A stretch of DNA of 64,000 nt from Axinella damicornis. Its lineage: Eukaryota > Porifera > Demospongiae > Axinellida > Axinellidae. The notes beneath the pieces are model-generated. The model worked only from the letters and a program-made list of their open reading frames with translations. It was not told the DNA's origin and made no database searches. Position numbers and translations under genes: made by a program. Below, piece after piece: positions 308 to 54,801 of the stretch (positions are counted from its first letter, which is position 1; each line of letters starts with the position of its first letter). The stretch spans positions 10,870,899 through 10,934,898 of the forward strand of contig OZ007517.1 of NCBI GenBank assembly GCA_963931865.1, written 5' to 3'.

Positions 308-2774
<2,467 letters not shown>

Positions 2775-9039: not shown

Positions 9040-11069
9040 TCAGGACAAGAAAGTGTTCTGCTGCATGATCCGGCTGTATTTCCTCTGGTCTTCGTAGAGC
9101 TGCTGAAACACTTGGTATTTGCGGTTGTGGAACCTGAAAACAAAGCAGCAGCTATTCTCTGTAACATGCTCCCGTGCAACAGTTGATATGAGGCAACAGT
9201 GATAGACTACAATGTCACTAACTCTTTCACAGCTGCGTCAGGGCAGGGATGCACAGCACCTCCACTGGCCACTCGAGTCATCCTCAGCATGGCTTCACCA
9301 ATCTGAGCGTGGGCATAATTGTTGACTGGATCAATACACTGACAACAACACTACAGAGACCCCACACGTCATCAAGTACATTGCGACTATCCCACAGATA
9401 TGTACGACTACACGCAGGTATGTTAACCCCTGGCCCCTGGAACACACTGGCTGTGTACGACTACACGCAGGTATGTTAACCCCTGGAACACACACTGCGA
9501 TGGGAGTAGCTGTGGGAAGTGGAGAAGGGCATGTAGAAATTCTAGTACCTAAGTGCACATCCTGTACAGTGTGCAGTAAGGTTGCAATCAGGACAAGTAG
9601 AGGAACACTGATTGCGTTTACAGCGTGCACTGTGCAGAAAGGTTGCAATCAGGACAAGTAGAGGAACACTGATTGCGTTTACAGCGTGCACTGTGCAGTA
9701 AGGTTGGACAGCAGAGGAACACTGATTGCATTGGCCAGTGGAGCTTCTGTGTACATTGTGTGGAATGAGCACAACCACATGCTGGATTGAGTCTGTCAAT
9801 ATTGTTCTGCAGGAGTGAGGTACCAAGTGTTGGGTTATCTTCATGAAATTTTTCCAGAGGGACAGAATTGAGCAGAAAGCAGAATTCCTGTTCCTGGGAG
9901 GGACACAGCCGGTACCTGTCATCTCTCACACTAGTCTCGTGCCCAGACCCCTTCCCCTCAGAGGGTCTGGGAGCGAGACTGCTCTCAAACCAGAGTCTGC
10001 CTGTATTTTACTGTGGGATATATAGCAGAGCCCAGTGCAACGAGTATACAGTATGGTGGGATGGAACTCAGAGGGGGAGCTGCATTCCTGAGGCAGTCAT
10101 GGCATTCCTGAGGCGGTCAGGGCCTGATGTACCGAAGCGAGACATGCAGCAGTCCACACACACGGTCAGAGTGAGCACTCAAGATCCTGAGCGTTCAGTG
10201 GATCAAGTTCTGAAATTCCTTTCGTAGCCACAACTCAAGGGTGGCCCCTTCCTACAAGCACGGATGTTGGACAGTAATGTGTGGTGTGTGGGTGTTAACA
10301 ATTACATTGTCACCAGCAGCAGCAGCTGCCAGAATGGCACTGCCCATCAGCACCGCCTCCTTCTCCTCTGTCAGCAATACTGGCAGCCCTGGGGAGCGGG
10401 AGAGAGAAGACAAACTATGGCTTCAGGCTATAGCCTTTATTCTAGCCTCGTTCCCAGGCTAGAACGAGAGCCTGGGAACGAGGCTACCTTTATTCCCGGG
10501 CAAGAGAAAAAGGGCACTGGACTAGCCCTTGTTCCCAGAGCTCTATGCTCTATTTCCTTTTCTGTTGGCGGCCACAAATCTAGTGACAAGACTATTGCAG
10601 GAACATTCATTACCATATTTACACAATCTGTTGGTACGGTCAGGGCTGTGCACTGGACAAGCTCAGTAAGTGGTGTCAAGATGCAGCTTCTCACAGCAAA
10701 GCATGGGAGTGTTTGCCTTGCACAGAGCAAGAGGTGTCCTCCCCCTACCTCAAAGGATTGAAACCCCAGGCTGTGGTTTTTGAGCATATGCCCTTGTTAA
10801 GAATCCCTTCAGTGGACAATTAGCCAGTGTCAACATGTTGTCACAACCAGACTGCACTTCTAATGCCAAACTGGAAGATTAACACATAGCTACATTGTTA
10901 TGGGCATACCTGTGACGTCTGCATGCATCTGGACATACAGCTGGTTGTTCCTCAGCCCACCGCACATTAGGATGGCGTGTATCTGGTGGCCATTACCGGT
11001 CATGGTCGCTATGATGTGCCTAGTGCCATACTTTGTGAGTGTGTGTGTGTGCGCGCGTGTGTGCGCGTG

Positions 11070-11113
<44 letters not shown>

Positions 11114-14100
11114 TGTGTAAAGTTTCAGTTTAGTTGGGGGCTGCTGACTACAATTATAGTAATGTATGCGTGTGAGTGTATGCGTGTGAGTGTATGTGGT
11201 ATGTATATGATACTATGGACACACAACTCTTGACGTTTGTTTGCCGCAACTTAGGAACTTCCCGTCACCGAATGCAAGGAAGTTACATTAGGAGCAAAAC
11301 AAAGTAAAAACATTACTCAGCTTAAATGATACAAGAAAGTGTCTGCACGCATTAACAGCATTTGCTGTCACCGCCTTCCATAAGCTCAGACGTTTTCTGC
11401 CTCTCGCTTTAGCCCTAAAATGTTCAAATTCCCTTGGGTTTTCATGCTCCAAACGCTACACGTACAATAGCCTCTGCAGCCATCCAGTGCATATTTGTGA
11501 CTCTAACACACCTACTCATTATTGGGTTTCAATAGTCACGGCCAAAAACTCATTCACGGAAATGGAGGCCCTACAGGCAAGGAATGCTTTTATGCAAGGA
11601 GAGGAGGAACTGGCCTACCTAGTGTCGACCAAGCCCTTCCTAAAGCTCACCCAGAAAGAGCCATGCTGTCTCCTAAGGACATTGTTGGAGTCACAATCAC
11701 TTGCTGAACATTCATGACACATATAGAGTCAGCCCCACAGCCCCACCAGTGCTCGATCACAATGAGAGGCAGCCCCACAGGGAAGTGCAGCCCCACCAGT
11801 GCTCCGATCACAATGAGAGGCAGCCCCACAGTGCTCTGCACCCTGAGCAGTGCTTCCTCTGATGAGTGGGGGAGAGGAGACAGGATGGCCTAGTTTGGTC
11901 AAGCAAGGAGGACACCCTGAACCGGCTGGGAGCTAGCTCTTGTGGGAGTGAAGCCCCAACACAAGGATCACGCCTATTAGCGGAGTGTTTGTGACTCTAT
12001 GCTCCTGCTGCCAGAGAATAAGGCATACCTTTAGGTAGCCTCGTACCCAGGCCTGGCGGTCGGGCCTGGGTACGAGGCATACCTTTAGGCTAGTATTGAT
12101 TATTGCAAGTACAAAATTTAGCAGTTTGAAGGAACCTCAGATTCGGCGTTTACTATTTTACTGTCACAATAATGAGTTGCATCCGGGGTTGCAACGGCTT
12201 ACCAGGAGTGCGGTTGCCCCTCGAACAGAATCAGTTGCAACAATTTATTAAGAATTTTTTTGGCAATTCACAAGCGTTCCCACTAAAATCACTAAATTAG
12301 TACCCCAATATTGTATGAGGGCTTTAACCACCCTGTGGAAGCCTAGGAACACCAACGCTTCCGCTTTATTCATCATTGTCAACTATCAGTGCAGTACACA
12401 GAAGTTCTAATGTTAGCATGAGTTTAGTAGTATTAAAATTGGGTAATTATGTAGTAACAGTAGTTTGGACAACAGTGCCGTGGACAACAGTACCGTGAAC
12501 AACAGTACCGTGGACAACAGTACCGTAGCTATACACGACACTGCCTGCAGGTAAGCAGGCAATATTAAACAGGTGCTCACGGCTAGAGCCAGCACAGTCG
12601 CCAGATAGAGCCGCACCAAGTCCTCCACTGTGCTGCTGAGGGTGAGTCCACACACCTGCAGAAACACAAGCAACCATCACCACAGGACATTCCTGCACAC
12701 CTCTTCCAGAACCTGACTATTCCACCTCCACATTCCACTGAATGTGGAGGTATGGGAGAATTTATCATTTATCCTGTCTCTGCCGCAGGAATCCAATATA
12801 CCACCCCCAACATCTGGGTAAAGTAAGTTGGAGGAACTAGATGATGTCTGTTTCCTCAGCATTCAGGAATGGACAAGGTTGAGATGCTATCAGGGGGATT
12901 GAAACAATGTTGAGATGCTATCTCTGTTTGGGTGGGTGTGTGTTTGACCACTCTGCCATAATATTGACAGTGTACATGGTGTGATGATATTGACAGTGTA
13001 GATACAAGGTGCAATGATGGTCGTGGAAGTGACAACGTGGAAGTCCTCAGTTTCACCCTGAACTGACCTTCGAGCACACATCCAGTGGATAGCAGTATAA
13101 GGTTATGGTGTCGGAAGTGTCAGTTTCACTTGCGCAGGTGTACACATGCTGTATATGTTTCGTTGCTAAGTAACAGAGAGCTGCTGTGATCCCATGACCT
13201 GGGGGCCAACACCCACCCACTGCAACACACTATTCACTATACCTCCCATGGTCATGCTGTTATTCAACGCTAGTAGACAACACTCCAATTCACAATGAAT
13301 GTTGGCAATTACTAATATGGAACAAAGAGTAGTTAGTGTATGGAACTATGATTACTGCTGACTTACCATAAAAGGAAGGTACTAAATTTGATGCTGCTAA
13401 ACATAGATTTGCAGGAAGTAGCCACTGAATGATTTCTTTAGAGCACTTCCCAAACACTAACTTCCTGTGATTAGTTAACAAGTGCCCAAATACAGAATGC
13501 CAGCGTGTGTTTGAGAGGGTGGATGTGTGACAACGTGTGCACCAGCTGCCTTCTCATGTTGCCCTCTTGCTCATTAGCTAGCGGTGACTGGTACCTGCTA
13601 AGTAATATTTAGATACCACTTTGCAGTGCATTATGGATTTTAGTGCACGAGGGCAATCTAGTTAACGGTCGAGGGCGAGATAATGCACGAGCCGAAGGCG
13701 AGTGCATTATCCGCCCGAGACCGTTAACTAGATTGCCCGAGTGCACAAAGCCCGTAATGCACTGCAAACTGGTATCTAAACTACTTAGTGCAACTCACTG
13801 ACCCGAGACCTACACACAAAACCTTGGCAGCCATAAACGGTACAAAGTCAATGCAGTATTTTTTTTTACTTCCAAGCGCTTCAGCCAAAGCCTGATCTCC
13901 CAGGAGAAGGAGGAGTAAGGAGGGCACTTCGCCTGTGAGGCAATGGGTGGATTGGAACATGGTTAGCGTCACTCAGCTAGGCTACCTTTGCAATGTGCAT
14001 ATGCAATAGATCTGCAGTCTAGTACGCTACGTCGGGTCTTTGTGTCACCAAAGAGACACTCGGAACCTCCGTTTGTCTTTATCTTGATACTACTCCAAGT

Positions 14101-17100: not shown

Positions 17101-18002
17101 CATCCTCACAGTTGTAAGAAGTACTCCCTATGAGCAGTTCCATCCGCAAAACAATGATGCTTTGTTGACCATTAACACTGAACCCCACAGCTGAGATTGA
17201 CATGGCTGAGATTGGCACGGCTGAGAATGACACGGCAGAGGTTGACACGGCTGAGATTGACACAGCTGAGATTGACACGGCTGAGGTTGAGGATGAAGTG
17301 CATGCACACTCCTACGGTCTGCATGCTCTGGGAGGTCTCCATTCCTCCATAGTTTCAGTCGTCCGGTCTGCATGCTTGTCCTTTCCTGGTTCAAGAGGAA
17401 CTGAGAGAGCCGACTAGGTTGTCGCTCTGACAGGCAGTAGGATGTACTCTTTCATGAAGTCACATGGCTACATGGCTAGATGCTCTCCGGGACAGGAGAC
17501 CAGCTCTGTAAGTTACCCACATCCTGCACCCGCCGCAACACCCAGTGAAAGCACTGGAATCCCACTGGTTGCCTGGTTGCCAAAGGGATGGAATTAAGTG
17601 TTTTTTCATTCTCACATCCCATCAGCCCACTCAGCTGCACCATAATTGAATCCAGACATAACTATATGCTAATATACACTGACCACAAATAGTTTTAGAC
17701 TTGGAGGTGTTGCCTGGCAACATGATTAGCAGCTGTGCAGAAGCCTCATGCGTCTCATGCCAGCTCCGATATCAATGTCGCTCAGAGCAGGTGCTCACGG
17801 GGTTGTGTGTCCACACTCAACTGTGGCATGAGAGATCATGGTCTGCCAGATGTCACACAGGAAGGATTTTATCCTGAACAGTATCTGCAGATCTCTCTTC
17901 CCAGGAAAAGGCTTCTTAGTTGTTCCTACCAGTGCTGCCTGACTGGGTAATTGGCTCTTCCACAAGTGGCGTGTATGCTCTACACTCGAGTGTGAGACTG
18001 TT

Positions 18003-18039
<37 letters not shown>

Positions 18040-23295: not shown

Positions 23296-23398
23296 CTTTA
23301 ACAATTTAGCGCGCGCCGCCAACTTCGGTGCGGCTCCACCCATTTTGGAACCGGAACGTGAACGTGCGTGATTGGTCTGGTTCCGAGACTAAAACGTG
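23296..23398. promoter_or_regulatory. Bidirectional promoter between FGGY and AVL9
   Basis: 103 bp between divergent start codons, GC-rich with an inverted CCAAT box (ATTGG) near 23370. Shared use is inferred from spacing. Confidence 0.55.
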
Positions 23399-24886: not shown

Positions 24887-25101
24887 CTCATGGTGAAAAA
24901 TTGACGGGTGAAACGCTGTGTGTTTGTGGTTAACAGAAGTTCATGTTACAATAGCGGACTGATTGATCCTACAATCAGTATGACCACGCATCACATACAG
25001 ACGTGTTGTCTAATTACTCGTGTCTGTAATTTTTAACCAGTGTCGCTCTAGCTCTGCGCGCGCTGCATGCATGATCGAGCTAAAAACTTCAGTCGACGAA
25101 A

Positions 25102-30841: not shown

Positions 30842-31025
30842 ACGGCATGCAGTTCACTGGCTTATGATGTGCACATGTATTTTGGATTGACAGAAAATGA
30901 AACACTGAGAGTGAGAGAATGGGGAGAAGTAGCCTGGGTACGAGGCTAGGGGAGAAGCTGCATGCATGTTACACAGCTCTGGAAGAATAATTCACAAGTT
31001 TAAAAATAATTGACAGTAAAAACAT

Positions 31026-34000
31026 TCATACAGTCTGTTCTGCTGGTGGGTTGTCAATTCCATTGGTGTGGGTCTGACCATCCTCATACGTCGGCCGTCT
31101 GGGCGGCTCCACTGATCCAGTCTGGTACATCTGCTGTCTGGGCGGCTCCACTGATCCAGTCTGGTACATCTGCTGTCTGGGCGGCTCCACTGATCCAGTC
31201 TGGTACATCTGCTGTCTGGGCGGCTCCACTGATCCAGTCTGGTACATCTGCTGTCTGGGCGGCTCCACTGATCCAGTCAGGTACATCTGCTGTCTGGGCG
31301 GCTCCACTGATCCAGTCTGGTACATCTGCTGTCTGGGCGGCTCCACTGATCCAGTCTGGTACATCTGCTGTCTGGGCGGCTCCACTGATCCAGTCAGGTA
31401 CATCTGCTGTCTGGGCGGCTCCACTGATCCAGTCAGGTACATCTGCTGTCTGGGCGGCTCCACTGATCCAGTCAGGTACATCTGCTGTCTGGGCGGCTCC
31501 ACTGATCCAGTCTGGTACATCTGCTGTCTGGGCGGCTCCACTGATCCAGTCTGGTACATCTGCTGTCTGGGCGGCTCCACTGATCCAGTCTGGTACATCT
31601 GCTGTCTGGGTGGCTCTGGTTGTCCGTGCTCGTACACATTAGGCATTGCTTCGTGCTGTGTTGATGGCTCCAGTGTCTGTCCACTGCTAATGCTGCAAGG
31701 CAGGTGACAGAGAAGCCAATTCAAGCTGATACGATTAAACTACACTTGGAGTCTGTGCATGCTAGCAGCAGGTGGCATGCTAGCAGGTGGTGTGCTAGCA
31801 GCAGATGGCATGCTAGCAGGTGTTAAGTACAAAATAGGAAGCCGTGCAGAGCAACTAACATAATACACTCACATTAGTAGACATTCCTCTGGGTTAAGTA
31901 CAAGGGCTTCTCACAGCACAGTGCAATTCAGTTTTTCATTTTAGTAATTCCTCAGTTAACAATCAACTAATTATTACTTAAGCTCTCAATGCCCATTTCA
32001 CAGGAAGTAGTTGGCAACCACTCACCTTCTCTTCCCTTTATTCGAGATGACGAGCAGGGCCGCCAAGGTCACCACCATCACGACGGCGGCAATGAACAGC
32101 AGCTCTGCCACCAGGGTTGCAGCAAGGATGGGAATGCTGACACACGTCTCTGTTCTGGGTGCGCTTGTGTTGGACGGTCCAGGCTGTCTACACAAGGGGG
32201 CACTCCTTAGCCGTATGCTAACTGGACAGTTGTTGTTGAGGGTGATCAAACTGCCACTGGGTCCCTGAGCAGCTGCCCCCTGAGCGACCCAGTCCTCAAC
32301 ACAGCGCAGCAGTGTACCTGCAGTGCAGTTCTCAGTGCTTGTGAGGTTTGCCCTGTACGTGGCGTAGACCGGCGTGCCAGCTTCACACAGAAGAGAGCCT
32401 CCAGTGATGAGGGAGTTCTGATACACACAGCCACATCGACTGCTGATGGCTCTAGCGGTCACAAACTGAAAGAACGTTGACAATCCTCTCTCCCTCTCAG
32501 CCTGTGTGATGTGTGGGACACAAAGCCACTAGTCATAACACTTCAAACAAGAATGCAAAGCACTAAGCAAAGGCCATCGGCAGTGATAATGATGTGCCTC
32601 TATCTACTTAGCCACACTCCATATCTACTTAGCTATACTGTCCATATTCACTTAGCTACAGTCTTAGCCACATGGCCACACATACATTCCAGTCATCACA
32701 AGCTGCCAGCGGGCCTCCCCTCAGCTGGAACAGAGCTGTATCTGAGCAGCCAGATAAAACACATCTATCACTAAACGAATTACTCAATGATAATCGAGAC
32801 GTATATTAAACTATAATTATGTTACACAGTCATGCATGGGGTTATATACAGCCTTGTTCCTACCATCCAGTTTAGAGCTTAGTTTATACCTGGCACAAAG
32901 ATGATACTGCCATTGTCTGGAGAGCTTTCCTGGGACACACTCCCATCAATGTCCATGATCGTCCCGACAACGTGGAACAGGTATGTCGTATGCGGGATGA
33001 GTCCACCTACCTCCCCACAGGTGACACCGGCCGGGAACAGCTGCATTACCTCTTGAGGAGGGACGGTACTGCCACTGTAGTGTACACAGTAGTGGGTCAC
33101 ACGTACCCCACTGGGCAGGTCGAGGGCACTCCATGTTACTCTCACAGAGGTGGTACTCAACACCTCTGTACTGACGTGCCTCACCACGGCTAGGTGTGGG
33201 TGTGTGTGCAAGGATGAATTCTGCACTACTTACTAGTAAACGTTACATGGAAAACCAGCTGCAGCTAGCCAGAAACCGCCATTATAGTGGATATAACAAG
33301 GTAACCGGAAAGCTAATACGCTTTCCCTGCAGGACACACCTACTCATTTTATAGGGTGGAGCTGAGTCGACTCGAGGAAAAAAAGTTCCTATGGCAATGA
33401 TGAACTCGAACCGGCAACCTTTTGACTATAGCAGTTGATGCCACTTGCATGGCCACGCTTATTGCAGCCATTAAAGAGAAACGTGCGACCTCAAATCATT
33501 TGCAAGCTTTGGAGAGAGAGAATAATCCACAGAAAAAATTCTGGGACCAGCTGGGATTCGAACCCAAGACCTTCTGAGTACTAGTCAGACGCTCTTACCG
33601 CTAAGCCACTGGGCCCACGGCAGAGGAGCGGAAGCAAGGCTGTATATAACAGCGCAGGCTAGAGGACTTAGCCGATTCCAGCTGTCTTTCTCTCTCTCAC
33701 GGTTGTTCAAATCATTTGTTTATTTACACCGTAGCTATGGACAATTCACAGGTGATATGTGATGGCTACTTGTACCAGCTCACGGTGTTCGAAGGTAGTA
33801 AAAACAGCTTCCTCCGACCTAGCGGATCTGCGAGGAGTGTTCACAGCAATGACAGAGTAGGTGTACGTAGTCCCTGGAACCAGCCCACCCAGCAGAGAGG
33901 AGTACACCTGGCCACTTTCTAGATGCTCCGTAACGTTCACTGCTGTGGTGTTGGTTTCACTGTCACCTGTGTGGTAGTTCACCAGGTACGCGTATGACCT

Positions 34001-35000: not shown

Positions 35001-37609
35001 TCAGAATACCCAGGAGTTGTATGTGGAGGTCCAGGCAACGGTGGTCACCCACGATGGAAGATCATCTATCAGGTCACTGAGAAACTCTGTTTTTGACTGG
35101 GGTGGGTCAAGGTAGTGCGTTGCTATGGCAATATCCAGCCACTCCTTGGCATCTGGGTCACCCTGAACACAAGAGTTGTCATAATTATTCTCCGTAACAT
35201 ACGTAAATGTGCAATTAAGAGCCAACTGTGAGTCCATGGCTACATAATTATTAGGCAAGGCATTGTTTTCATAGCCTCGTTCCCAGGCCTTTTCACCCCA
35301 AGCTTGCAATACCAACTAGGCTCTGGGAACGAGGCCAGGAACAATAGCCCCATCCCCAGGCCTTCTCACCCCAGCGCTTGTCGCTTGCAGTACTACACTG
35401 AGGCCCATGGATCTTCTTCCAATAAACTGAAATGTACATGCATATGATGAGCAGTGCATATGATGAGCTAATCATAGCTGCCAACTGCCATGGCTCCTCC
35501 TCGCATCCTCCCTACTCACACATACCCTCCTACCCTGCAGCAATACACGTGTCAGTACAACTGCAGGCATTGTAATGCCACGTTGTCTGCCAGCAGTGGG
35601 AGCCTCTCAACTGCAGTCAGTTTGACGGTGGGCAGTGAGTTGACTGCCAGCCACCGGGAGTTGGTCTGGGATGGCTAAGTTATACTACTGAGTTAAATCC
35701 GCAGTCTACAGTCTGCAGTAGTGAGAGTACACTTGCCTTGATCTCCACCCAGAACGAGACCCCTTCCCCGCCCCCTGACCCCCGGGCATAGAACACAAAG
35801 TAGCACTCATCCCGGGGAGCTCCTGGGCAGGATGAGGAAGGAGGAACAAACTGCTCCAGAGACCAGGCTTCCATGGAGTGGCTCGCCCGGGGAGAGATGG
35901 TTGCCGTGGCCCTGTGTGGAACTACAGAGGGGGAGGGGGGGGGGGGGGGGGGGGGGGGGGGTAGCAGAGGGGATGCAGAGGATGTTCTTTCGTAGATCAA
36001 TGTGCAGAATGGTACTCCATATAAGGCTTGGTAAGCGACAGTGTGCTCTAACTGCACATACGTTTTGCCTGGAAAGTGAAGTTCCTGGAGTCAGCTGCGG
36101 TCCACTTGACAGACAGCAGCTCCAGGGAGGCTGGTTCAACTCCCCGGAGTTTTGGAGCCGGCAGATACCAGTTGTTCCTGTGATAAGGTAGCACTAAAAT
36201 GAATGGATATTTAGATTCCATACCCTACACCTTACAACAACTGCAGTCTGCAGTCTGTGCTAAGACCGACTATGCTACTAAGCTGAACACCGATGGTCTG
36301 CCAGGAGTTACCCGCTGAGGTGCCGGACTGGAATGTAGTAGGGTTGGTGGCAGTAAACCCCCTCACAGGTGCAGTCCAGGGCCTCCTTGAACTTCGGAGC
36401 AGCATCAGCTATTGGCTTCAGTCCCAAGAAGTCAAACGTGTTGATGAGCACAAAAGAGTCTGTCTGCCTCACTGTGCCGTCCATGTTGTGCAGGGTCCTG
36501 TCAGTGTGCTGTGCAGTGGAAGTACAACAACCCCAAGTGAGGGTTGCGGAACGCAATCATACACGTAAAACTGCCTTGTGTACACCTTATTCTATGGCTG
36601 CTATAGTGTCTGACAGACACATACGTACATTGTATCACATGAAAAAGACATCACTACACATATTTGGCCCACATTACTTAACCCATTGCACCCCGTAGCA
36701 GCCAAATGAGCCCGGAGGATACCCATAAGCCCATAAGATTTTATATAGGGGGGTTAATATTAGGCGTTAATACTTTGTACATGTTCTTCTGCTTCTTTGA
36801 GCTGTTTGCAGTAGTAGGTAATGAGTTAAATCTGATGAATATGAAATGGAGGTTGATTGAAAATACTAGTACAGTACTAGAAGGGTGAGAGTTGGAAGGA
36901 CTGTGTGTGTGCCTCTCTGAAGAATTATTACAAGCAGCTTCGCTCACTTCAGCTGCTGGTTCTGCTTAGGGTGTGCCTCTAGCACTGGACAGCTCACAGT
37001 TTGTGCAATGGTCGTGTGAGTATACACTTGTCACTACATTACACATACACACATGCAGAAAAGCTAGTTTAAAATGTGTAATGATTGGCTTTACAGTTGG
37101 TAGGAACAGGTTGCATTGATGTGAGGAGGGAGGTCAGGGTCCGCCAGAACAGACTAACACAGCTGTGCAAACGTTGAATTAATGAGTGGCTTTCCTCATG
37201 TCTACCTGCATAAAGAGCCTCTTTGGTCTTGGCTGGCCAGTCATGGAGTAGGCAGACATGTTTCCAGAGGCAGCTAGGAGCAGAGACATGGCATAGATTG
37301 TCAGCATGACGATGGCCGACCAGCACTTCAGCCTCTTGCTTGATGAGTAGACCACAATGGACATCTGTATTGTGTTGGGTGAGAGAATATGCGTATGTGT
37401 GGGGTGTGTGTGTTGGGAGAGGGGGGGGGGGGGGGGGGGGTGTGTGTTGGGAGAGGGGGGGGGGGGGGGGGGGGTGTGTTGGGAGAGGGGGGAGGGGGGT
37501 GTGTGTGTTGGGAGAGGGGGGAGGGTGTGTGTGTGTTGGGAGAGGGGGGAGGGGGGGGGTGTGTTGGGAGAGGGGGTGTGTGTTGGGAGAGGGGGAGGGG
37601 TGTGTTGGG

Positions 37610-37649
<40 letters not shown>

Positions 37650-40320
37650 ATAACAACCGTGCATTGTCACTATTATGTCTCCACTTACCATATAAGGACA
37701 AATGAGACAGATGAGTGTTGCTGCTATCCCGCCAATGGCCAGGTCAGGGGGAAGCAGGGAACCAGAGCGACCAGTCAGGGGAACAAACATGGTGAAGACT
37801 CCCTCAACCAGCTGCGCACTCAGCATGACGGGCAGACTCGCCCCAAGTGCTGACAGCACAGTGAACGTGAGACTCCACAGCACCCGCTGGTGTGTCCTGT
37901 GAATGGCCTTCTGCAGGAGGAGGTCCCAGAGGACCCCCTGGAAGGCCAGTGGGAAGGCAATCCACACAAGAAAGATGAAGGCTGAGCAGATTCTGAGGTA
38001 CGTCAGGATGAGCAGACATGCTGTCCAGACCAGCTGGGTGGCTAGGAAGCATCCTCGACCTTGAGCTTCCTGGGAGGTGTGGGGGTTCTGCGTGCGTATG
38101 GGGGGGGGGGGGGGGGGGGGGGGGGGTAGCATTAGCGTGCACTATACTGAGTCACAGGCTCACCCACCAGTCTCGATGGCAGGGGACAGTTGCATGTTGA
38201 CGTACCATGAAGATCCAGTGTACAGCAGCCATGGCCGTGAAGGCAGGAGTGGCATAGAGAGGGATGATGAAGAGAGGGTGGGCGAACCACGAGAGGGAGT
38301 GCCCCAGGAGCTGCAGGAGAATGGCCGTGAGGGAGGCGGAGAGGAGGGCAGCAGCCCAAGAGAGAAGGAGGACGGCAATGGCTGTGAGCACAGCATGAAT
38401 TGTGGGTTTGTCTGTGAGGAGGGAGAGAGGGGTAGAGGAACGAGTGACGAGGTGGGGGTGAGGGTGTGCAAGGGTGTGAGGGTGTGTAAGGGGTGTGAGG
38501 GGGTGAATTCCTGAATGGCATGTACAGAGAACTACCTTGATTGGTTCTTCTGGTGTGGCCCCTCGATGTTCCAAAGTACACGCTAACTAGTGCTGCAATA
38601 CCAACCAGGGTATTCAGGATTGCCGCCACCCTCTCCGGATATATGATCACCGTCTTCCCAAACAGGTCAAAGAACACTAATTTTCCATGCCTGTCCTCCC
38701 CGGGGTCCTCCAGCAGGGGCGAGGTCGACACCTCACGTACGATCGCCAGGACATTCTCCCCTGCCCTCTGTATGGATGCATCAGGAATGGCTGAAGGGAC
38801 ATCGTACCTGAAGGGTAGACCAACAAACATGGACGTGCTGGCTAGTAGTCTGCAGTGCCAGCAGCAAGGAGGGGAGTCTCAGTCCCAGGGGAGGTCTGGG
38901 ACTGAGACTATACGGAGACAACGGTATTCCATTTAGGTTTCCATTCCAATCTTTGATGTTTTCAAAACCCCATACTAAAACGGTATTTACTTGAAATAGC
39001 ACTATAGAACTTCGTTGGGTGCACTGACCTCATCTGACACGTGCAGCCAGCACCTTCCGTTCTGTCCAAGTGCTGTATTGCCATGTATACTAATGCCCAC
39101 CATAAATGCTACATCACTCAAACTACTTTGAAATGGGCTATTTGTAGTCAGATAACTACTATAGCCGTTTCTAGCTAAGCGTGTTTAACTGGTATTCTTG
39201 CTTACTGTAACTCGATCTAGCTTTTAGAGAAGTGTTAGCCTTACTAAACAGTGCAGAGCTCATGTTTGAATACCAGCAGTATCTGGTAGCATATAGTACT
39301 CCTGTACTGCTCAGCAGCACTCACTCACTCTGTATGGTACACGTATCCATTCACAAAGTAGGCGGTGTCAATCCCGGGGATGTGTCCGTGGTCCCGAAAC
39401 ACTCTGAAGTCGGTGTCCGAGGGGATGATGCCAGATTGGAACACCTCCTGGGCTATCACAGAGGCATGTGGGTGGGGCGCTGACTTGGCATACAGCCTTG
39501 CCAGCCACGGGTTATCAGGGCCAGTCTGGAAGACTATCTCCCTCCCACCAGCTCCACACGCTTCCAGGTTTAGAAATGCCTTGACCTGCCTTGCCCACGG
39601 GTGCTGCGTGATGAACCCATGTGAGGCCTGCAGAAAGGTCTCCTCCGCTCCATTGAAGAGGAAGATCACTGCGTGATCAGGAAGCAGTGGGGAGGGGTTG
39701 GCAGAGATGCTTCGCAGGACCTCCAGCATTGTAGCACAGCTCAGTGCATCATCGCTGGCAGCCACGGTTCCAATAGCAGAGTCAAAGTGGGCGTTCAGCA
39801 GAAACGCATGTTTTGGGGAAGTTCCTTTTCTGCTAAATCGAACCACAACGTTTGTGAGGTTGTGGTAGAAATGGGTCATCTTACCGAGGAAGTCGAGGAA
39901 GAAGTGTCCCGAGGGCTGTTGTACATCGATCTCCATCACCACCTGTTCGCTTGCTAGGGAGCGAATGGCCTCGACCTGGCTGACAATCAGGTCCCTGGCA
40001 TGCACCTCATTGGCAGTGCTCCCAACATGCCGGGTACCCAGATCAGTGAGTGCCAAGAGATGTCTCCTCGCGTTGGCCACATGGAACTGGTTGGGGCTGG
40101 TAGGAACAGCTGGCTCGGGTAGCTTGCGGTAGTAGTGGAGAGACAGGGCAGCCATCCCAGCCAGCAGCAGCAGGTAGAGGAGGATACAGCCACCAGGGAG
40201 GATTGGCCCGCCATGAGATGTTGATTTGTCCTTACCACGTCTGTCTTGCGTCTCCCTCCGCTCCCACGTATGCTGAACTGCAGCTCCTCGCTGCCTCACC
40301 CCAGACTGCATGTCGCACAC
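35001..40320 (-). CDS. ERMP1: Endoplasmic reticulum metallopeptidase 1
   Basis: Multi-pass ER membrane aminopeptidase of family M28. Nine exons join in frame: 40320-39329, 38807-38536, 38411-38206, 38069-37689, 37364-37206, 36508-36312, 36177-36062, 35921-35737, 35162-35001 (889 residues; human 904). After one N-terminal TM helix, the peptidase domain shows NAHFDS, SDDALSC, NGAEET, NLEACGAGG and YHTEYD, the zinc and catalytic residues of M28. Exons 2-5 encode several hydrophobic helices. The lumenal C-terminal domain ends with FWVEIK, ATHYL and AWTSTYNSWVF, matching the ERMP1 C-terminus. Exon 8 uses a GC donor (AAG|GCAAGT). Long C runs (sense strand) precede the acceptors of exons 4 and 8. 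The start lies 135 bp from the PUF60 stop. Confidence 0.92.
35272..35336. repeat. Foldback repeat, TAGCCTCGTTCCCAGGC family
   Basis: Left end TAGCCTCGTTCCCAGGCC and right end CTGGGAACGAGGCC enclose a short spacer. No clear target duplication. In the last ERMP1 intron. Confidence 0.7.
37410..37648. repeat. G-rich minisatellite and G homopolymers
   Basis: Units of GTGTGTTGGGAGAGGGG alternate with runs of up to about 30 G. In ERMP1 intron 4, sense strand C-rich. Several spurious open frames arise here. Confidence 0.9.
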
Positions 40321-40454
40321 CTACCTACCCGGAGGCTACCGTACCACGGCTACCTGGAAGAGGCGTGGCTGAACGCTAACCTGGAAGAGGCGTGGCTGAA
40401 CGTAATTGATATGTACACAGAAAACAAAATCAAGGACGTGTTGCAGCATGGTGA

Positions 40455-41355
40455 CTAGTGAGAAAGGTCATTAGTTTCAAATTTTTCCTGGTCATAAACT
40501 TCAGCTGTTATCATTCTCCCACCAAACCACCTGCCATTGAGTGCCTTGATAGCATTCTCCGCCTCTGTGTGTGTGTGTGCGTGTGTTGTGTGTGTGCGTG
40601 TGTTGTGTGTGTGTGTGTGTGTGTGTGATTGGGAGAGGGAGGCAACAGTGATACTGACATCCGTACATAGACAGATAATCCTACTCACCATTTGGTGCAG
40701 AGAAGCTGACAAATATCTTGATGATGACCTCCGCATCATCTTCAACCCCCTGCCTCTCCTGGTAGATGATGACCCGCTCCACGGCACCATACCTGCTGCA
40801 CTCCGAGGTGACCTCATCCTCCAGTTCCTCGTCCAGGTCCTCAGCAGACACCATGTTGCGTAACACAACCACGCTCGACTGGGAAGAGGAATGAAGACAG
40901 CTCTGTTACTCTGAGCAGAGAACCATAGTTAGCCTCGTTCCCACGCAGCCTGGGAACGAGGCTAAACCTGACAGTCAATACGTATGATGGTAGCATGCCC
41001 AGTCCACACACCTCCGACTTCCGTGAGAGTTTCTTCATGACCATGAGTCGTGCATTGCTGCCCGAGATGGAGACGTTCTCCTCCTGCTGTAGGGTGGCCA
41101 TATCCTGCTGAGTCCCTCGCTCCTCGTTCACCGCCTGAAGCTTTTCCTGAATCTTCGTTATCACTCCAGCGCTCACCCCCTCTCCTGTGGCCAGCCCGGT
41201 GCCTCCCTCCATCCCGGACCCTCCGATGTTCAGAGAGAGGTTTGGGTTGCCCGTGCTCATGCTCAGTTCTATTGCAGCTGCTGCCTGGTCAAGCTGCTGC
41301 TGTTGCAGAGCGCTGAGGGCAGTGGGGGCTGTGTGCGTGTGGGTGTGTGGGGGGG

Positions 41356-41386
<31 letters not shown>

Positions 41387-44300: not shown

Positions 44301-44390
44301 CAGCCCAGATAATCATGGCTGACACTAATATTGAACGGCCCCAGATGACCAGTACTTCACAAAGCATACATCTCTCCTCACCTCTGCCAT
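40455..44390 (-). CDS. PUF60: Poly(U)-binding splicing factor PUF60
   Basis: U2-snRNP-associated factor that binds poly-pyrimidine tracts, helps 3' splice-site recognition and represses FBP-driven transcription; nuclear. Exons: 44250-44165, 43394-43273, 42976-42885, 42724-42511, 42435-42308, 42164-41993, 41866-41725, 41328-41012, 40878-40689, 40564-40455, about 524 residues. RRM1 contains [12 protein letters not shown] and [12 protein letters not shown]2 contains [12 protein letters not shown] and GWGYIEYD. An Ala-rich linker and a C-terminal UHM (VVLRNMV ... IIYQERQG ... [10 protein letters not shown]) follow. The N-terminal exon is unsettled: ATG at 44390 (MAE, donor GTGAGG) is plausible but its phase does not match exon 44250. 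Introns hold a GGGA-rich tract and a foldback. Head-to-head with AGBL4. Confidence 0.93.
40930..40964. repeat. 35-bp foldback, TAGCCTCGTTCCCA family
   Basis: TAGCCTCGTTCCCACGC against GCCTGGGAACGAGGCTA. Flanks are only partly alike, so the insertion duplication is not clear. In a PUF60 intron. Confidence 0.75.
42985..43198. repeat. GGGA/GGAG purine tract
   Basis: Over 200 bp of almost pure purine on the plus strand, i.e. a pyrimidine tract on the PUF60 sense strand just upstream of the acceptor for exon 42976. Confidence 0.9.
43971..43998. repeat. 28-bp perfect palindrome
   Basis: GGGCCAGACCCACA followed at once by its inverse complement. In a PUF60 intron. May be the end of a decayed foldback element. 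Confidence 0.75.
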
Positions 44391-44489
44391 TCGCGCGGTG
44401 TTGCTGATCAAGATTACTACGCATGCGTGGTGATTTGAACTTTGAACCTTAAGATTTGGCGGAATTATTGAACTTGAACTTGAGATTCA
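44391..44489. promoter_or_regulatory. Bidirectional promoter between PUF60 and AGBL4
   Basis: 99 bp between divergent ATGs. Contains the palindrome ACGCATGCGT (44419-44428), reminiscent of an NRF-1-type site. Function inferred. Confidence 0.5.
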
Positions 44490-47400
44490 ATGGCTGCTGA
44501 CGGGGAGGAGCTGTGTAGGTCAGAGGTTGAGCAGCCGCCATCCAAAGAACCCTTCGTAGGGAACCTCTCCAAGTGCATTCCCTTGCCACCTGACCGTCTT
44601 GGTGATGTGAGGCGTGGGGACCTGCAATTTGATTCATGCTTTGAGGGAGGTAGGTAATTTGTCACAGGATAGCTGTATCTACACAGGGTGTAGGTTTACG
44701 TACAAGTCCTGAATACATGCAAAGACAAACAATGGGAAAAGTACTTGGCATGGCAAAGGAGAAACAATAAATTCAAGCATAGATAATCTCTATTATCTAT
44801 GATTCAAGCTGGCATGCAAACTTAGCTACAAATTGAGGTACGTATGTTTTTGCGCCAAAATTGGCACATTTTGGAAGTTATTCTACCAACAATTTGACAT
44901 GCCAATTTTGGAATTAAACCTAAATTGGCAGGAACAGCACTCCTGTTCTAATTCTATAGGGTGACTGATGTGCCATTTCTGCCAAAAACCAATGAACCAA
45001 AATTAGCATTGGGATAGACTTGGAAGAGAATGTTGCCCTAGGTATGGGTATGCGAATGAGATATGAAGCTGGGAATTGTGCCATTGTGGTCAGCATAAAA
45101 AGAGCTTTCAAATAATGTCCTTAAAATGATTTTATAAGCTCAGTCACATTTTTGCCAAAAATCGCACTTGACCATGGTTTTTCATGATTTTGGGTCAAAA
45201 TTCAACCAATTGCAAAATTGGCATCATTGGAATGCTCCATTCATGCTGATCACAATGGTGCAAATCCCAGCTTCATATCTCCTTCCTACCCCAAGATATA
45301 TTAGCCTCGTTCCCAGGCCATAGCAAACTTGCCTGTCACTCACCAGGAGTGCTTTTCTGCCAATTTCAGTTTTGTTGTTCCATTTTCGGTAGAAATGGCA
45401 CATCAGTCACCCTACAGAACAGGAATGCTGTTTTCTGCACAGTCAAGTCAAAATGTGTCATAATTGGTAGAACCAAATTGTGCCAGTTTTGGCATGTGCA
45501 CATACAGTGTACCTGCACTGCCATACAGTGTACCTGCACTGCCGTACAGTGTACCTGCACTGCCGTACAGTGTACCTGCACTGCCGTACAGTGTACCTGC
45601 ACTGCCATACAGTGTACCTGCACTGCCGTACAGTGTACCTGCACTGCCGTACAGTGTACCTGCACTGCCATACAGTGTACCTGCACTGCCGTACAGTGTA
45701 CCTGCACTGCCATACAGTGTACCTGCACTGCCATACAGTGTACCTGCACTGCCATACAGTGTACCTGCACTGCCGTACAGTGTACCTGCACTGCCGTACA
45801 GTGTACCTGCACTGCCATACAGTGTACCTGCACTGCCATACAGTGTACCTGCACTGCCATACAGTGTACCTGCACTGCCGTACAGTGTACCTGCACTGCC
45901 GTACAGTGTACCTGCACTGCCATACAGTGTACCTGCACTGCCATACAGTGTACCTGCACTGCCATACAGTGTACCTGCACTGCCGTACAGTGTACCTGCA
46001 CTGCCATACAGTGTACCTGCACTGCCGTACAGTGTACCTGCACTGCCATACAGTGTACCTGCACTGCCGTACAGTGTACCTGCACTGCCATACAGTGTAC
46101 CTGCACTGCCGTACAGTGTACCTGCACTGCCGTACAGTGTACCTGCACTGCCATACAGTGTACCTGCACTGCCGTACAGTGTACCTGCACTGCCATACAG
46201 TGTACCTGCACTGCCGTACAGTGTACCTGCACTGCCGTACAGTGTACCTGCACTGCCGTACAGTGTACCTGCACTGCCATACAGTGTACCTGCACTGCTG
46301 TACAGTGTACCTGCACTGCCATACAGTGTACCTGCACTGCCATACAGTGTACCTGCACTGCCATACAGTGTACCTGCACTGCCGTACAGTGTACCTGCAC
46401 TGCCGTACAGTGTACCTGCACTGCCGTACAGTGTACCTGCACTGCCATACAGTGTACCTGCACTGCCATACAGTGTACCTGCACTAACCTACAAAATGTG
46501 TAACAGACAGTACCAAACAACTGGTACAGACTGTGGTGCACTCAGCTCGGAGGGCAGATTTGAAGGTAGCATACTTTGCGCCTTGTCTAATAGAGGGAAG
46601 GCTGTTGGAGCCTTGAGCTCCTTGAAACTCGGAAGTGCTTCTGTATGAGTTCGTGTTTTGGCGGTGTGGATGGAGTTTGTTTTCACCCCTAAACTGTGGT
46701 GAACCTGGCAGAGCACAGCGATCTCACTCCTTCTGTGTATGGTTGTCCAACCCAAAGATATTTGACCCTTGGTCACAAGCAGAGATATTGGCATATACAC
46801 TTGCCTCCACCATACAAACCTTTCCCCACACATGCACACTCTTATTGCAGGAAACTTGGGTCGTGTTGACTACATTAGTGACTATGAATATGATCTGTTC
46901 ATCAGGCCAGACACTTGCAATCCACGGTACTTACCTTCGTGCTCGTTAGCCTCTGCTCCCAGGCCTCATGGGAGGAGAGAAAGTGCTGTCGTTATTCTCA
47001 CGCAGCCTGGGGACGAGGCTATGTGCTGTGCTCCCAAGGTAGCTGGCTCGCTTAACTTTCACGCAGGTACCGTGTCTGGTTCAATTTCACAGTGCAGAAT
47101 GTCTGTTCAGACCAGGTGAGTGTAGTCATCTGAGCTCTGGTGTCCGTGTAGCTACGGTAGTGTAGTGAGTGTCTCTTTCTCTCTGCAGAGGGTGATCTTC
47201 AATATCGTAAACTTCAGTAAGACCAAGAGCTTGTACAGAGATGGGATGAGCCCGCTAGTGAAGTCAACGTCTAGGCCTAACTGGTTAGCCCGTAGAGCTA
47301 TAGCTCAGAGTAGTGGCTGAAAGCCATGGGTGCTATGGTTATATGGTGTCAGTTCAATAGTCCTGTTCTGTTCACTAGGGAGCGTATCCCCCACAAGAAT

Positions 47401-50197: not shown

Positions 50198-51145
50198 GTA
50201 TCCTGCAGTCCAGCATGATAGTGGGATTTATCACTATGCAGTGTGATAACTGGTCTATAGCCTCATTCGCAGGGTCTACAGAGCAATCTCCTCTACTACA
50301 CGTCCTTGGGCCCCTAAAATGCACCCTGATTACAGATCGAGGTGTCGGGAGAATCTATTCATATGGAGTTGGTACAGCTGTACTTGATCTGATATATATA
50401 GGAGGGTCCTAAGAAAGTGTGGTGTCCTTTGAGAGGTTCCGATGAGTGTATACCCAAGAGTGGCGAGGGAACCCATGACTGTGAGGTTTTTTTTTAATAG
50501 CGTGTGCATATTCCACAAGTGGTCTGCCCACATTTTTACACCCACCAATTAAACCAACGCAACATCTTGCGCAACATCTTGCTGCATAATAATTACCACT
50601 TTGACTGTAGATGATAGTAACCTGCTTCAGGTTCACTCACTGGCCGGGTAGCCTAGAATGCAGTATGTTAAACCTTGATGAATCCCCAGACCTGAGTCTC
50701 GGTCGAAACGTTGCTCGAACATTCCTACACTACTACAACCTGGACAATCTGCAGTTCCCACCACCCTCCACCAATTCATGAAACTCGTGCAATCAGACAG
50801 TCGTATGGATTTATGTTAGCCTCTGTTCCTGGTACAATGTAAGCATGTCTCTGCATTACCATATCAACAGAAATGGTGTGTGTGTGAGCTCGTCTCGGCT
50901 CCTTGTCCAGGCCTGTTAACGTTGTTTGAACAAGCAAACTGGGCCGCAGCCATGACCCCATGTACTGTACATGCACAGCCATTGAAATCAGCAATAGACC
51001 AGTACATTATAACTACGCAACATTATTACTAATAGCCCTGTCATTCTCTTCTGATACTACTACAATGCTAAGTGGTAGTGAAACAGAATGCTCACATGTA
51101 CAGATGAAAAATAGGGCAAGCCAACATACTCTCATGTGCACATCA
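50198..51145. other. Interval between AGBL4 and SGSH
   Basis: May include the final AGBL4 exon (50611-50651 joins in phase, giving Tyr next) and the 3' UTRs of both convergent genes. A repeat tail with hairpin GACC/GGTC plus GAAACGTTGC lies at 50689-50714. No other gene seen. Confidence 0.5.
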
Positions 51146-52726
51146 TCATAGTCCATTATGCAGTGGGAGACATACGCCACTCTTTGGAAACATGCCTTGG
51201 TTCTCAAGCACACTGCTTGGGGCACACAGCCATGGATCATTGGTGGCTGCCTGCCAGTTAGTCAATTGCTTCTGCAGGTCAGCCAAGATGTCTTGGTAAG
51301 AGGGAACATCCACAAGGTTGTCTGTTTCCTCGGGGTCATGAGAGAGGTCATACAGCTCCCACTGACTGCGGTAGTAGTATTGCTGGAGTGTTTTGAACCA
51401 ATTTGTTGACTTTCCCTCCACTGTGCGATTCAGCAGGTCCTGGAATGACGGAGAGATGTAGAAGTCCTGGTCTATCATGAATGGCATCTTATAGTTCATG
51501 TTGTGTATTAGTTTGAATCTTTGGTTCCGAAGTGCCCGCATTGGGTAGTACATGGTAACCTCGTGGAGGCTGTGGCTGGCAAAGACAGTGTCCCATCCTT
51601 CTGCAGGCTCCTTCTCCAGAATGGGCAGGATGGAGTGACCGAGAGGCTTGACAGGATTGGGGCCAAAGAGAGTGTAGATTGGAGCAGGTAACCCAAACCA
51701 GTCCAGAATGGTGGGCATGAGGTCTGTGTGGCTGACCATTGCCGTGCTCTCCTGGCCCCACCTCTCTGGAGCAAGGGGAGTTGACACTATCAGAGGCTCG
51801 GCAATCCCAGGATCATAGAGATTAGTGCGTCCATATGGAAAGGGGATTCCATTATCAGAAGTGTAGACAACCAATGTGTTCTGTTCAAAGCCAAAGTCTC
51901 TTATTGCCTGCAGCAGCAGACCAACACCTTGGTCCAGCCTGCTGATGGTTTTGTACTGTGCAGCAAGGTCCAAGCGAGCTGCAGGAGTGTCCTGGATGAA
52001 GTAGGGTACATGGACATCGTCAGAGTCATAATTGATTGGGTGCCAGTCTGGGATCAGCCCCATCCCGGGACTGCCGTCCCCTAGCTTCTCACAGAACACT
52101 CCATATTTGGGATCATCATGGCCGCACCTGTGAGGGTCATGGAAACCAATGTAAAGGAAGAACGGCCTGTCCCCAGCCTGACTGAGGAACTGCCGAGCTA
52201 GCTCCTTGATCAAGGTAATGTTGCGTCCAATGATGTTAATGGGGTAGTTCTCCTCTGTGTAGGAGAACTGAAAGGGGTAGATGTAGTCTGGGCCGACATG
52301 CTTCTTTCCAATGATGCCTGTCCAGTACTGGCCGGTCTGGTTGAGGAGCAAGGGAAGACTCTGCACAGCATCGAAGGAATGGAAGTGGTGGTAGCTATGG
52401 TACAATCCATACATCCCATTCTCGTGCTGAGGGAGCCCGGTCAGGATTGCGGATCGACTGGGCGAGCAACTGCTCACCGAAGTGAATGCGTTCTTGAAGA
52501 CAACACTTCTCTTTGCAAACTCGTTTAGATACGGCGTCTTACACATGTCGTTGCCGTAGACGGCGGTCTCAAACCCCGCGTCATCTGCAACAATCATGAG
52601 CACGTTTCTCTTCCCCCCTGGCGCTGGAGGTGCACTTATTCTTATACCGCTAGCTTGTCCAACGGGGAGAAGAGCTATCACCATGCAGGCAGTTAACCGC
52701 AACAGACCTTGATGTAGTACGCACAT
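51146..52726 (-). CDS. SGSH: N-sulphoglucosamine sulphohydrolase (heparan N-sulfatase), intronless
   Basis: Lysosomal sulfatase that removes N-linked sulfate from glucosamine in heparan sulfate; defective in human Sanfilippo A disease. A single 526-codon frame. Residues 1-27 are a signal peptide. Metal ligands ADDAG follow at 47-51, and the formylglycine motif Cys87-Ser-Pro-Ser-Arg sits inside [33 protein letters not shown] and [16 protein letters not shown] supply the remaining active-site residues. The C-terminal subdomain ([35 protein letters not shown]) and the ending LPLHNGL align with human SGSH (502 residues) along the whole length. Human SGSH has several introns, here none. A hAT-like element sits 40 bp upstream of the ATG. 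Confidence 0.96.
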
Positions 52727-52766
52727 GGCCGTTGCTCTCCGCTAGTATATAATCTATGCCGCTGAG

Positions 52767-53194
52767 TAGGGACAGGCCCATTATTCTATAAAAAGTCCCT
52801 ATTATTCTATTCCTTAATTCCCCCGTTTTTATCCTATTATTCCTGAATTTCCCCCTATTATTCCCACAAATATTCTACTTCAATTAACAGAATTTTACAA
52901 ACATTTCCGTTTTTGGGCTAAGTTTGACAAACTCGGATGACTTTCAGACTCTCCACTCACTCCAGTTAGATCACTCATCCCACAGGTCTCGCCACTAGAC
53001 TCTGGCTAAGGCTCAGTGATACTAGTACTACCTCAGGCTGCCATTTTAGTACTGATGATCATGCGCACGCGGTTAATGACATGCGCAATGACATCATTGC
53101 AATGCAATTCGTGCCTATTATTCTCGCATTATTCCCATTCCAAAATTTCCCCTATTATTCCAAAAGAAATTCCCGCATAATGGGCCTGTCCCTA
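52767..53194. mobile_element. 428-bp hAT-like non-autonomous element with exact 8-bp target duplication
   Basis: Terminal inverted repeats TAGGGACAGGCCCATTAT. CCGCTGAG is exactly duplicated at 52759-52766 and 53195-53202; 8 bp is the hAT size. AT-rich interior with many CCTATTATTCC strings and no transposase. It occupies the SGSH 5' flank. The rest of 52727-53502 shows no gene. Confidence 0.88.
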
Positions 53195-53502
53195 CCGCTG
53201 AGCGCTCGAGCGTTGGTACCTATTATGGGGACCACGCCCATTCGCTCAACAACCCCCTTCGGGCTGGGAGTCTGGTTCCGAGACTACCGGTACGTACTAG
53301 ACTTGACAGGACTTCCGGTACTCTCAGAAGGTCATAATGAGTACGTCCCAACCCTAAACTTTTATCATTCATTTCATCACATTTACATTGTGATGAATTT
53401 TAATGACTTGTAGAGGCCCAAGGTGGCCCATCAGTCAGTAGCTACATATATATATAGAAAATGACAGACAAGTATAAGGACTAAGTGACAAAAATGAAGG
53501 AT

Positions 53503-54390
53503 TTATATGCCGGTAAAACACATTCTGCACGAAAAGCATTCTGATATAAACCAAGCTAGCTTCCTAATAATGTTGGTGTTGGTGGTGGTGAACATAAATA
53601 ACATCTTCTCTTGTTCTGATAATTCTAGAAAAGCAGGGTTGTCTTTTGAAGCAGCTTTGTACAAAATATCTCTGTAGCCCTGTGTGATTCTGCAGCCTGT
53701 TATAAAATGTTTCTCGTCGTCCACTATTCCACTGTTACAGTATAGACATATTCGTTGCTCTGCTGGAATTTGAGGTCTTTTATATCTCCCAGTTTCTATC
53801 CTTAGGTTGTGGCAGCTCACTCTCAGTCTACACATAGCAATTCGATGTCTTCTATTTGTCACCACAGACAAGTAATCCTCCCATCCAAATTTGAATTTGA
53901 AAGTTCGATAGGTGCGCAGCTTGTTTCCCCCAACTGTCCTTTCATCATTCCAAAGATCGGCATACCATTTACACACAAATGTATCTTCCATTTTCTTTTG
54001 GATAAGGTGCAGAGAGCTCCCTATGTCCACAACCCCATAGGTCTGTAGCAGACGCCGTACACCACTGGCCCAGGATGTTTGCAATTGCTTGGATGCTGTT
54101 AGGGCTTCCTTTACCAAGCTAGGCACTTCTCCATGCAATCTATTCCAGAACTTCATGACACGATACTGTGTTCTAATCCAGAGTGGGAGTCGTCCAGTCT
54201 CTCCATACACTGCATTGTTTGTTGCCGTGAAAGGCAGCCCCAGCATTTTCTTACAATATTTGAGCACTGTCCTTTCCATTATAAGGAATTCTCTCAGACC
54301 CCAGATTTCACTTCCATATTCCAATACCGGTTTACATTGGTTTTGTAAAACGCTTATATTTTTATTACACTTTTGGGGATTTAAAAAAAA
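53503..54390 (-). mobile_element. 5'-truncated non-LTR retrotransposon (C-terminal part of RT ORF)
   Basis: An open frame of about 295 codons with the features of LINE ORF2 C-termini: PVLEYGSEIWG, a GRLPLWIR segment, RLRVSCHNLRIETGRY, and a terminal zinc knuckle ICLYCNSGIVDDEKHFITGC. The reverse transcriptase core is absent, so the copy is 5'-truncated, as is usual for LINEs. The reading frame is intact to its own stop, implying a young insertion. The frame extends into a foldback repeat at the 5' side, which is not part of the element. Confidence 0.85.
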
Positions 54391-54410
54391 AAGTGCTTCT
54401 GGTACTGCCC

Positions 54411-54440
54411 TAGTCTGGTTCCCAGATGGGAACCAGACTA
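54411..54440. mobile_element. 30-bp foldback with exact 9-bp target duplication
   Basis: TAGTCTGGTTCCCA and its inverse with a 2-nt centre. GTACTGCCC on both sides (54402-54410, 54441-54449). Ends differ from the TAGCCTCGTTCCCA copies at two positions on each arm, changed in step. The flanking 54450-54801 holds two more half copies and no gene. Confidence 0.85.
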
Positions 54441-54801
54441 GTACTGCCCAGGCCCACATGCACGCTGAACGTGGCCTGGGAACGAGGCTAACAGAAAATG
54501 GGGATCCCCTTTTCAGGGGATATTTCAGCAGCTAACCTGTCTTGTCCCAGACCAGTTCTCTCATGGGGAGGATTGAATGGCTGGGACAAGACTAGCAGCT
54601 AGAGGTACCCATGGCACCATCATCCTTGACTAGCTCATTCATAATTGACCCCTCCCATTTAGTACTGGTTCAGGAGACAGAATAGTTGAGTGAGATGCAG
54701 AATCGGACAACAGAATGCTTCTAGTGGTATATAGATTGCGTTGATGTTTGAGACGTCACTTGAAAGAAATACTTGAATGTAAAGATGAACACAGCTACCG
54801 C

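Follow-up and report, generated by a model that had tools for sequence, protein, structure and literature searches.

Miniature palindromic transposons with 9-bp target duplications form a very large family in the genome of Axinella damicornis

Within the stretch of Axinella damicornis DNA analysed here (the window; 64,000 nucleotides, G000:C13:10870899-10934898, from a genome of 226.5 Mb in 120 contigs), a family of very short hairpins was identified, the family ends being TAGYCTCGTTCCCAGRC. The hairpins are palindromic, non-autonomous DNA transposons of the miniature inverted-repeat transposable element (MITE) or foldback type and are extremely small; the family is ordinary in kind, extreme in size and number, and notable for its palindromic design. 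The best explanation of the data, and a probable one, is that of a very large family mobilised in trans, in which each lineage is born as a palindrome, units of ~55 bp move, and the shorter forms are shrunken.

Abundance was assessed in a 264-kb sample, comprising the window and 20 arbitrarily placed loci of 10 kb, and across the genome. The sample contained 134 hairpin arms (TAGYCTCGTTCCCAGRC, up to two mismatches), compared with two matches for the reversed motif, and in the window alone the arm GCCTCGTTCCCAGGC was matched 32 times at up to three mismatches, where 1.5 matches are expected. The exact 17-mer occurs 21,007 times genome-wide (10,089 + 10,918) and its reversed control not once, while strict foldback patterns of 34–59 and 28–33 bp were found at 3,222 and 150 places, respectively, with no matches to either control. 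The 200 kb outside the window held 30 foldbacks of 19–200 bp, 12 of which were no longer than 59 bp, and extrapolation from these 30 gives ~34,000 such foldbacks per genome. As in MITEs and foldback elements, the units are short, non-coding, and present in high copy number.

The sequence-only reading of the window reported 9-bp repeats flanking three copies, all of which were found to be present and perfect, and in the larger sample such repeats far exceed chance. Two random points 19–119 bp apart in the window match at all nine positions with a probability of 0.0012. Among 134 candidate pairs of arms (up to four mismatches) lying <400 bp apart in the 264 kb, 16 had flanks matching 9/9, where cross-pairings predict ~0.06. 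Of the flush matches at <150 bp, 14 had a length of 9 and one a length of 4, with none of length 5–8 or 10–12. The flanks of the 29 readable foldbacks outside the window matched 9/9 in nine and 8/9 in five. A set of 58 short elements fetched by place, from which the two array edges L085 and L086 were left out and in which L065 and L066 were both counted despite identical flanks, yielded 19 perfect duplications and 12 more matching 8/9; mismatched (cross) pairings reached 8/9 in 3 of 3,306. By class, 9/9 matches were observed in 7/20 elements of 29–33 bp, 8/18 of 38–57 bp (mostly with recurrent centres), and 4/20 of 37–58 bp, and 8/9 matches in 6, 3, and 3 of these, respectively. Elements L064 and L081 were flush over 10 bp and L048 over 6 bp. 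Copies without a clear duplication are as expected of old insertions or broken elements.

The duplicated sites prefer G at the first position and C at the last (42/74 positions in 37 duplications, p = 7e-9), with a middle that leans, by counts only, toward Y-W-R; the list of 37 lacks one 9/9 case (L013), and two of its entries belong to the related TAGTCTCG family. A nested insertion was also seen by eye: a 9-bp-flanked member of the family contains a TAGTCTCG-ended element that is itself flanked by a 9-bp duplication. Inverted-repeat ends and a target duplication of fixed length are likewise as in MITE and foldback elements, and the elements end in TAGYCTCGTTCCCAGRC and create the 9-bp duplication on insertion. 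Taken together, the target duplications, the thousands of dispersed copies, the target preference, and the nested insertion strongly support a mobile origin. The duplications, preference, and nesting also make it highly improbable that the motif is a host element, such as a site bound by a protein or a structural RNA, which has spread through duplication or selection and not by transposition, even though the sheer copy number would suit such an element and a Mutator end motif is described at chromatin loop anchors in placozoans in excerpts of PMC12221973.

The sequence-only reading had described the hairpins as looking mobile down to 30 bp, of which the mobile origin was borne out and movement of the 30-bp form itself was not. 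Units of ~55 bp (52–57 bp) were probably themselves mobilised, because elements of this size that lie at different sites, each flanked by its own duplication, have centres in common, and because a 39-bp core recurs at 10 places. The 37 centres with a length of ≥10 nt included 21 related pairs, as compared with 0.03 in shuffles, and members of the related-centre groups carry differing duplications, which strongly suggests that the ~52–57 bp elements would be units of transposition. Related centres are found mainly at 52–57 bp, with one pair at 44 bp and one at 46–47 bp, two pairs that constitute weaker evidence for mobility as a unit at 44–47 bp. The 10 places of the 39-bp core, which has GTACCC arms, are spread over seven contigs, and the GTTCCC counterpart occurs at one place; in the one copy of each whose flanks were read, the duplications are TTGCAATAA and CTTCAGCCC, respectively. 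Internal sequence common to copies at independent sites, again as in MITEs, was thus observed in the 52–57 bp units and in a 107-bp unit.

Several observations weigh against the preferred reading. The scored centres take in stem letters adjacent to the arms, so that longer arms rather than the centre may account for part of their relatedness, especially in the CACACC group; moreover, of the 10 places with the 39-bp GTACCC core, only one (L083) had its flanks read. A tandem array at G000:C1:1337821-1339087 (ends L085 and L086) consists of 22 units of 58 bp, each a 49-bp hairpin plus a 9-bp duplication, in which the inserted element and its target duplication have expanded together. The exact 29-bp core of this array-type 49-bp unit is confined to a single tandem array (14/14), on which ground mobility of that unit was rejected, and copy number can therefore grow without transposition. 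Furthermore, no transposase was linked to the family ends in the sampled sequence. None of the 20 Mutator-like loci sampled, out of 51, had family arms on both sides within 1.5 kb of either side, a distance beyond which ends would escape, and one Mutator-like subfamily has inverted repeats beginning CACTTTG.

A transposase that cuts its target with a 9-bp stagger would mobilise the elements in trans, and a Mutator-like enzyme is a first guess. The 9-bp duplication agrees with that of Mutator-like elements (MULEs) and disagrees with the 7–8 bp of the P superfamily. Genome-wide, there were 51 matches to Mutator-like and 67 to P-like transposases. The Mutator-like loci gave no support as the source, the family ends not being found around the gene at the 20 sampled loci and one subfamily having other inverted repeats; three of the 20 do hold family arms, not on both sides of the gene. 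No P-type transposase lay within five coordinate-paired elements of the related TAGTCTCGC family, none of the P matches having been read for its ends. A related family with TAGTCTCGCAAGCCAGCC ends, inverted over ~90 bp and flanked by 9-bp duplications, reaches 4–5 kb (Table 1), and no recognised transposase was present in its searched reading frames. In one member (L047), a DEAD-helicase-like fragment was found (PF00270; E = 1.6e-4, which is under the cut-off), together with an open reading frame of 116 aa, for which a protein search returned 11 unnamed relatives without a domain. A single autonomous 4.4-kb element at L009 4336-8706 was considered and rejected, as the region proved to be a short foldback interrupted by an element with its own duplication.

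It is possible, although not favoured, that all forms below ~60 bp are scars, either excision footprints or in situ internal deletions of longer foldbacks, which never moved as such. In many short copies each end contributes 16–17 nt, with a small filler, and a staggered cut inside the ends would leave ~17 nt per end and a filler. P elements are reportedly cut with a stagger of 17 nt, and P-type transposases are abundant in this genome (67 matches), but P elements duplicate 8 bp and the present family 9. Duplications as such do not tell scars from movers; related centres, however, recur at 52–57 bp (and in one pair each at 44 and 46–47 bp) at places with separate duplications. Nor does the 28–33 bp class show any sign of greater age, CpG being kept in 65/92 arms compared with 58/88 and duplications of at least 8/9 being found in 13/20 compared with 18/38 (p = 0.27). 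GTACCC in both arms is commoner at 28–33 bp (9 of the 46 listed compared with ~8% of 3,222, an estimate from a partial listing; p = 0.01).

Under the preferred reading of trans-mobilised ~55-bp units, the 28–33 bp and 19-bp single-arm forms would most likely be end points of shrinkage within the family and, though they have duplications, may be products of internal deletion or excision. The commonest length among the 28–33 bp matches listed (50 of 150) was 32 bp, corresponding to two 16-bp arms with no spacer. As the centres of this class are too short, descent is indistinguishable from repeated origin. That these palindromes transposed as such, with two ends of 14–16 bp placed back to back and hardly any spacer as a working substrate, is rather unlikely; a palindrome of this kind would perhaps present one symmetric site to a transposase dimer, or form a hairpin intermediate. 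A helical periodicity of size was rejected, none being apparent among 44 lengths.

Each arm has a dyad of its own, TAGYCT...AGRCTA, and positions 4 and 16 agree inside the arm (C-G in 58, T-A in 23, and other combinations in 7 of 88 arms). A deletion between the inner AGGC of the left arm and the outer AGGC of the right arm would leave exactly the 19-bp form, which is also what the scar reading would lead one to expect. Single arms of 19 bp were found at 810 places genome-wide (reversed control, 10), and an excess was rejected by rough reasoning, without a control, the count being no more than that of arms chancing to precede TA. The window contains one 19-bp single-arm element with a perfect duplication (30930-30948), which was absent from the sequence-only reading. 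Among 19 further 19-mers checked, two matched 9/9 and three 8/9; three of these five have one common flank, being carried within another repeat. A tandem array in which each 31-bp unit comprises the 19-bp single arm and another 12 bp was also observed (L127, G000:C2:5362831-5363009).

The arms had been described as varying always in step, from which it was proposed that the hairpin is selected or that one arm is copied from the other. Arms were compared in 90 elements among the matches listed (44 of the 34–59 bp and 46 of the 28–33 bp pattern), with arrays and duplicates counted once, the sample being drawn from contigs C1–C4 only and not genome-wide. Positions 4, 10, and 16 were found mostly in step, with the minority letter in both arms 15 times at position 4 (3.3 expected; six one-arm changes), 18 times at position 10 (2.8 expected; 11 one-arm changes), and in 12 of 44 elements at position 16 (3.7 expected; five one-arm changes). 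Two 55-bp elements differ solely at position 10 of both arms, and among the first 100 entries listed GTACCC was present in at least one arm of 45 non-array elements and in both arms of 35 of these. Stem pairing runs past the conserved 17 bp with a sequence that differs by element, position 19 being paired in 28/35 compared with 12.4 expected, a figure inflated by related elements. The CpG at positions 7 and 8 is not in step. Position 7 was changed in both arms once (a GG variant; 0.8 expected) and in one arm 16 times, and position 8 in both arms three times (3.2 expected) and in one arm 27 times. CpG changes are thus independent between the arms, with 43 in one arm and four shared, one of the latter being the GG variant and not decay.

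Because of this independence, the resident arms are not visibly under continuous correction, and the arm data therefore indicate that the two arms agree at first and that each then decays on its own. It is accordingly improbable that selection, or an ongoing correction of one arm by the other, maintains the hairpin in resident copies: such maintenance would account for the agreement at positions 4, 10, and 16, the GTACCC elements, and the 55-bp pair, and excerpts of PMC8794818 report template switching as a maker and also a repairer of perfect hairpin stems, but the 43 one-arm and four shared changes are as independence predicts. A non-palindromic relative of 94–107 bp (40 nearly full-length copies scored among 842 candidates) likewise speaks against it, retaining the same pair of unequal ends in the two copies sampled. 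Selection or copying is thus supported at the founding of each lineage only. A lineage would start as an inverted copy of one end, through an event that creates a palindrome, for example template switching during replication, and would then spread, with no correction after insertion seen at CpG.

The copies in the window, together with the larger related elements, are given in Table 1. The seven further copies proposed by the sequence-only reading are all real arms or foldbacks, with a recognisable duplication in only one (9932-9981); the end flanks of the other six match at 1–5 of nine positions, although those of the element at 46947 match 7/9 once both are shifted by 3. The copy at 12036 ends in GGCAT instead of GGCTA, and by eye the repeat that flanks it can be extended to 14 bp (GGCATACCTTTAGG).

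Table 1. Copies of the hairpin family in the window and larger related elements elsewhere
Feature	Position	Strand	Remarks
76-bp foldback	2041..2116		longer stem; no recognisable duplication
50-bp foldback, TAGTCTCGTGCCCAGACC type	9932..9981		flanks CTCTCACAC / CTCTCAAAC, matching 8/9
Left 9-bp target duplication	10434..10442		CCTTTATTC
44-bp foldback	10443..10486		arms TAGCCTCGTTCCCAGGC/complement; centre 10 nt
Right 9-bp target duplication	10487..10495		CCTTTATTC
Left 9-bp target duplication	12027..12035		ACCTTTAGG, within 14-bp repeat
45-bp foldback	12036..12080		both arms GTACCC type; right end GGCAT
Right 9-bp target duplication	12081..12089		ACCTTTAGG
Left 9-bp target duplication	30921..30929		GGGGAGAAG
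19-bp single-arm element	30930..30948		TAGCCTGGGTACGAGGCTA
Right 9-bp target duplication	30949..30957		GGGGAGAAG
66-bp foldback	35272..35337		no recognisable duplication
37-bp foldback	38874..38910		arms AGTCTCAGTCCCAG; duplication unrecognisable (5/9)
35-bp foldback	40930..40964		duplication unrecognisable (5/9)
75-bp element, both family ends	46947..47021		duplication unrecognisable (5/9 at ends)
Left 9-bp target duplication	54402..54410		GTACTGCCC
30-bp foldback	54411..54440		TAGTCTGGTTCCCA-GA-TGGGAACCAGACTA
Right 9-bp target duplication	54441..54449		GTACTGCCC
Lone right arm adjoining 30-bp copy	54474..54490	-
Degraded copy	58454..58487		GTCTGGNTCCCAGAC arms overlapping
Larger related element, ends TAGTCTCGCAAGCCAGCC	L009 4423-8676		9-bp duplication AAGCTGGGC, by eye
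Larger related element, ends TAGTCTCGCAAGCCAGCC	L047 63-5315		9-bp duplication ATTCAGTTC, by eye

The 30-bp foldback sits at the upstream end of a 318-aa reading frame (53503-54459, minus strand), which has no Pfam match and looks by eye like the C-terminal part of a retroelement. Eukaryotic reading frames in the window include a Jun-type bZIP, Avl9, an M28 peptidase, and a sulfatase. A second tiny foldback family, with ends CAAGAGYGCATAAGTAG, is present at 2572-2637 (66 bp) and 6399-6458 (60 bp), flanked by the 7-bp repeats GTGGAGA and GCTTAGT, respectively; the first of these is a perfect 66-bp palindrome, and miniature palindromes are therefore not confined to one family. Two tandem repeats were also noted, a 21-bp unit repeated 47 times at 45501-46485 (97% matching, open in several frames on both strands) and a 39-bp unit repeated 13 times at 31097-31616 (98% matching), the latter with GTCTGG words resembling pieces of the arm.

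The minimum length of a cut-and-paste element is set by the need to bring two ends together on stiff DNA. According to excerpts of PMC3464196, bacterial transposons are reported to need at least 64–70 bp in vivo, and the shortest loop inferred in Paramecium is ~45 bp. With thousands of natural elements of 19–60 bp, many with intact duplications, the minimum mobile size becomes testable. The hairpins also form a large dataset on the birth and decay of palindromes, which is useful because the CpG of each arm serves as an internal clock.

A search of open-licence literature on tiny, 9-bp, sponge, and terminal-inverted-repeat-only elements and on excision footprints produced nothing nearer than Tm1, Mutator MITEs and pack-type elements, the internal eliminated sequences (IESs) of Paramecium, Galileo, and a paper on MULEs with multiple terminal inverted repeats, and the 15-mer GCCTGGGAACGAGGC was not found in the literature searched. 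Galileo has a 7-bp target duplication, unlike the 9 bp of the present family. Galileo and P-superfamily foldbacks nevertheless have foldback ends in common with the present family (PMC3573991, excerpts), and P-type transposases are abundant in the present genome. Paramecium IESs are partly derived from transposable elements, have a size cut-off of 26 bp, and shrink by deletion, and some are solo ends, for which direct-repeat recombination has been proposed; as described in excerpts of PMC3464196, they are TA-bounded, developmentally excised, and of ~10-bp size periodicity, whereas the present family has variable 9-bp targets and no periodicity in its 44 lengths. The Mutator MITEs and pack-type elements share the 9-bp duplication and a mostly non-autonomous nature, with ends that begin GAG in rice (PMC4423477, excerpts), whereas the present ends begin TAG and have no Mutator-like transposase linked to them; the related TAGTCTCG family compares with these elements in its inverted ends of ~90 bp and helicase-like fragment. 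Tm1, a Mutator/Foldback element of root-knot nematodes, has a transposase-coding member and ends that are composite, contain tandem repeats, and differ in their outermost motifs, with no target preference reported in the excerpted text of PMC3169594, in contrast to the conserved ends of ~17 bp, to which no transposase was linked, and the G-first and C-last targets seen here. Like the present family, Tm1 combines a foldback design with a duplication that is 9 bp in most copies (8–10 bp in 45 of 53) and MITE-like forms beside larger members (PMC3169594, excerpts).

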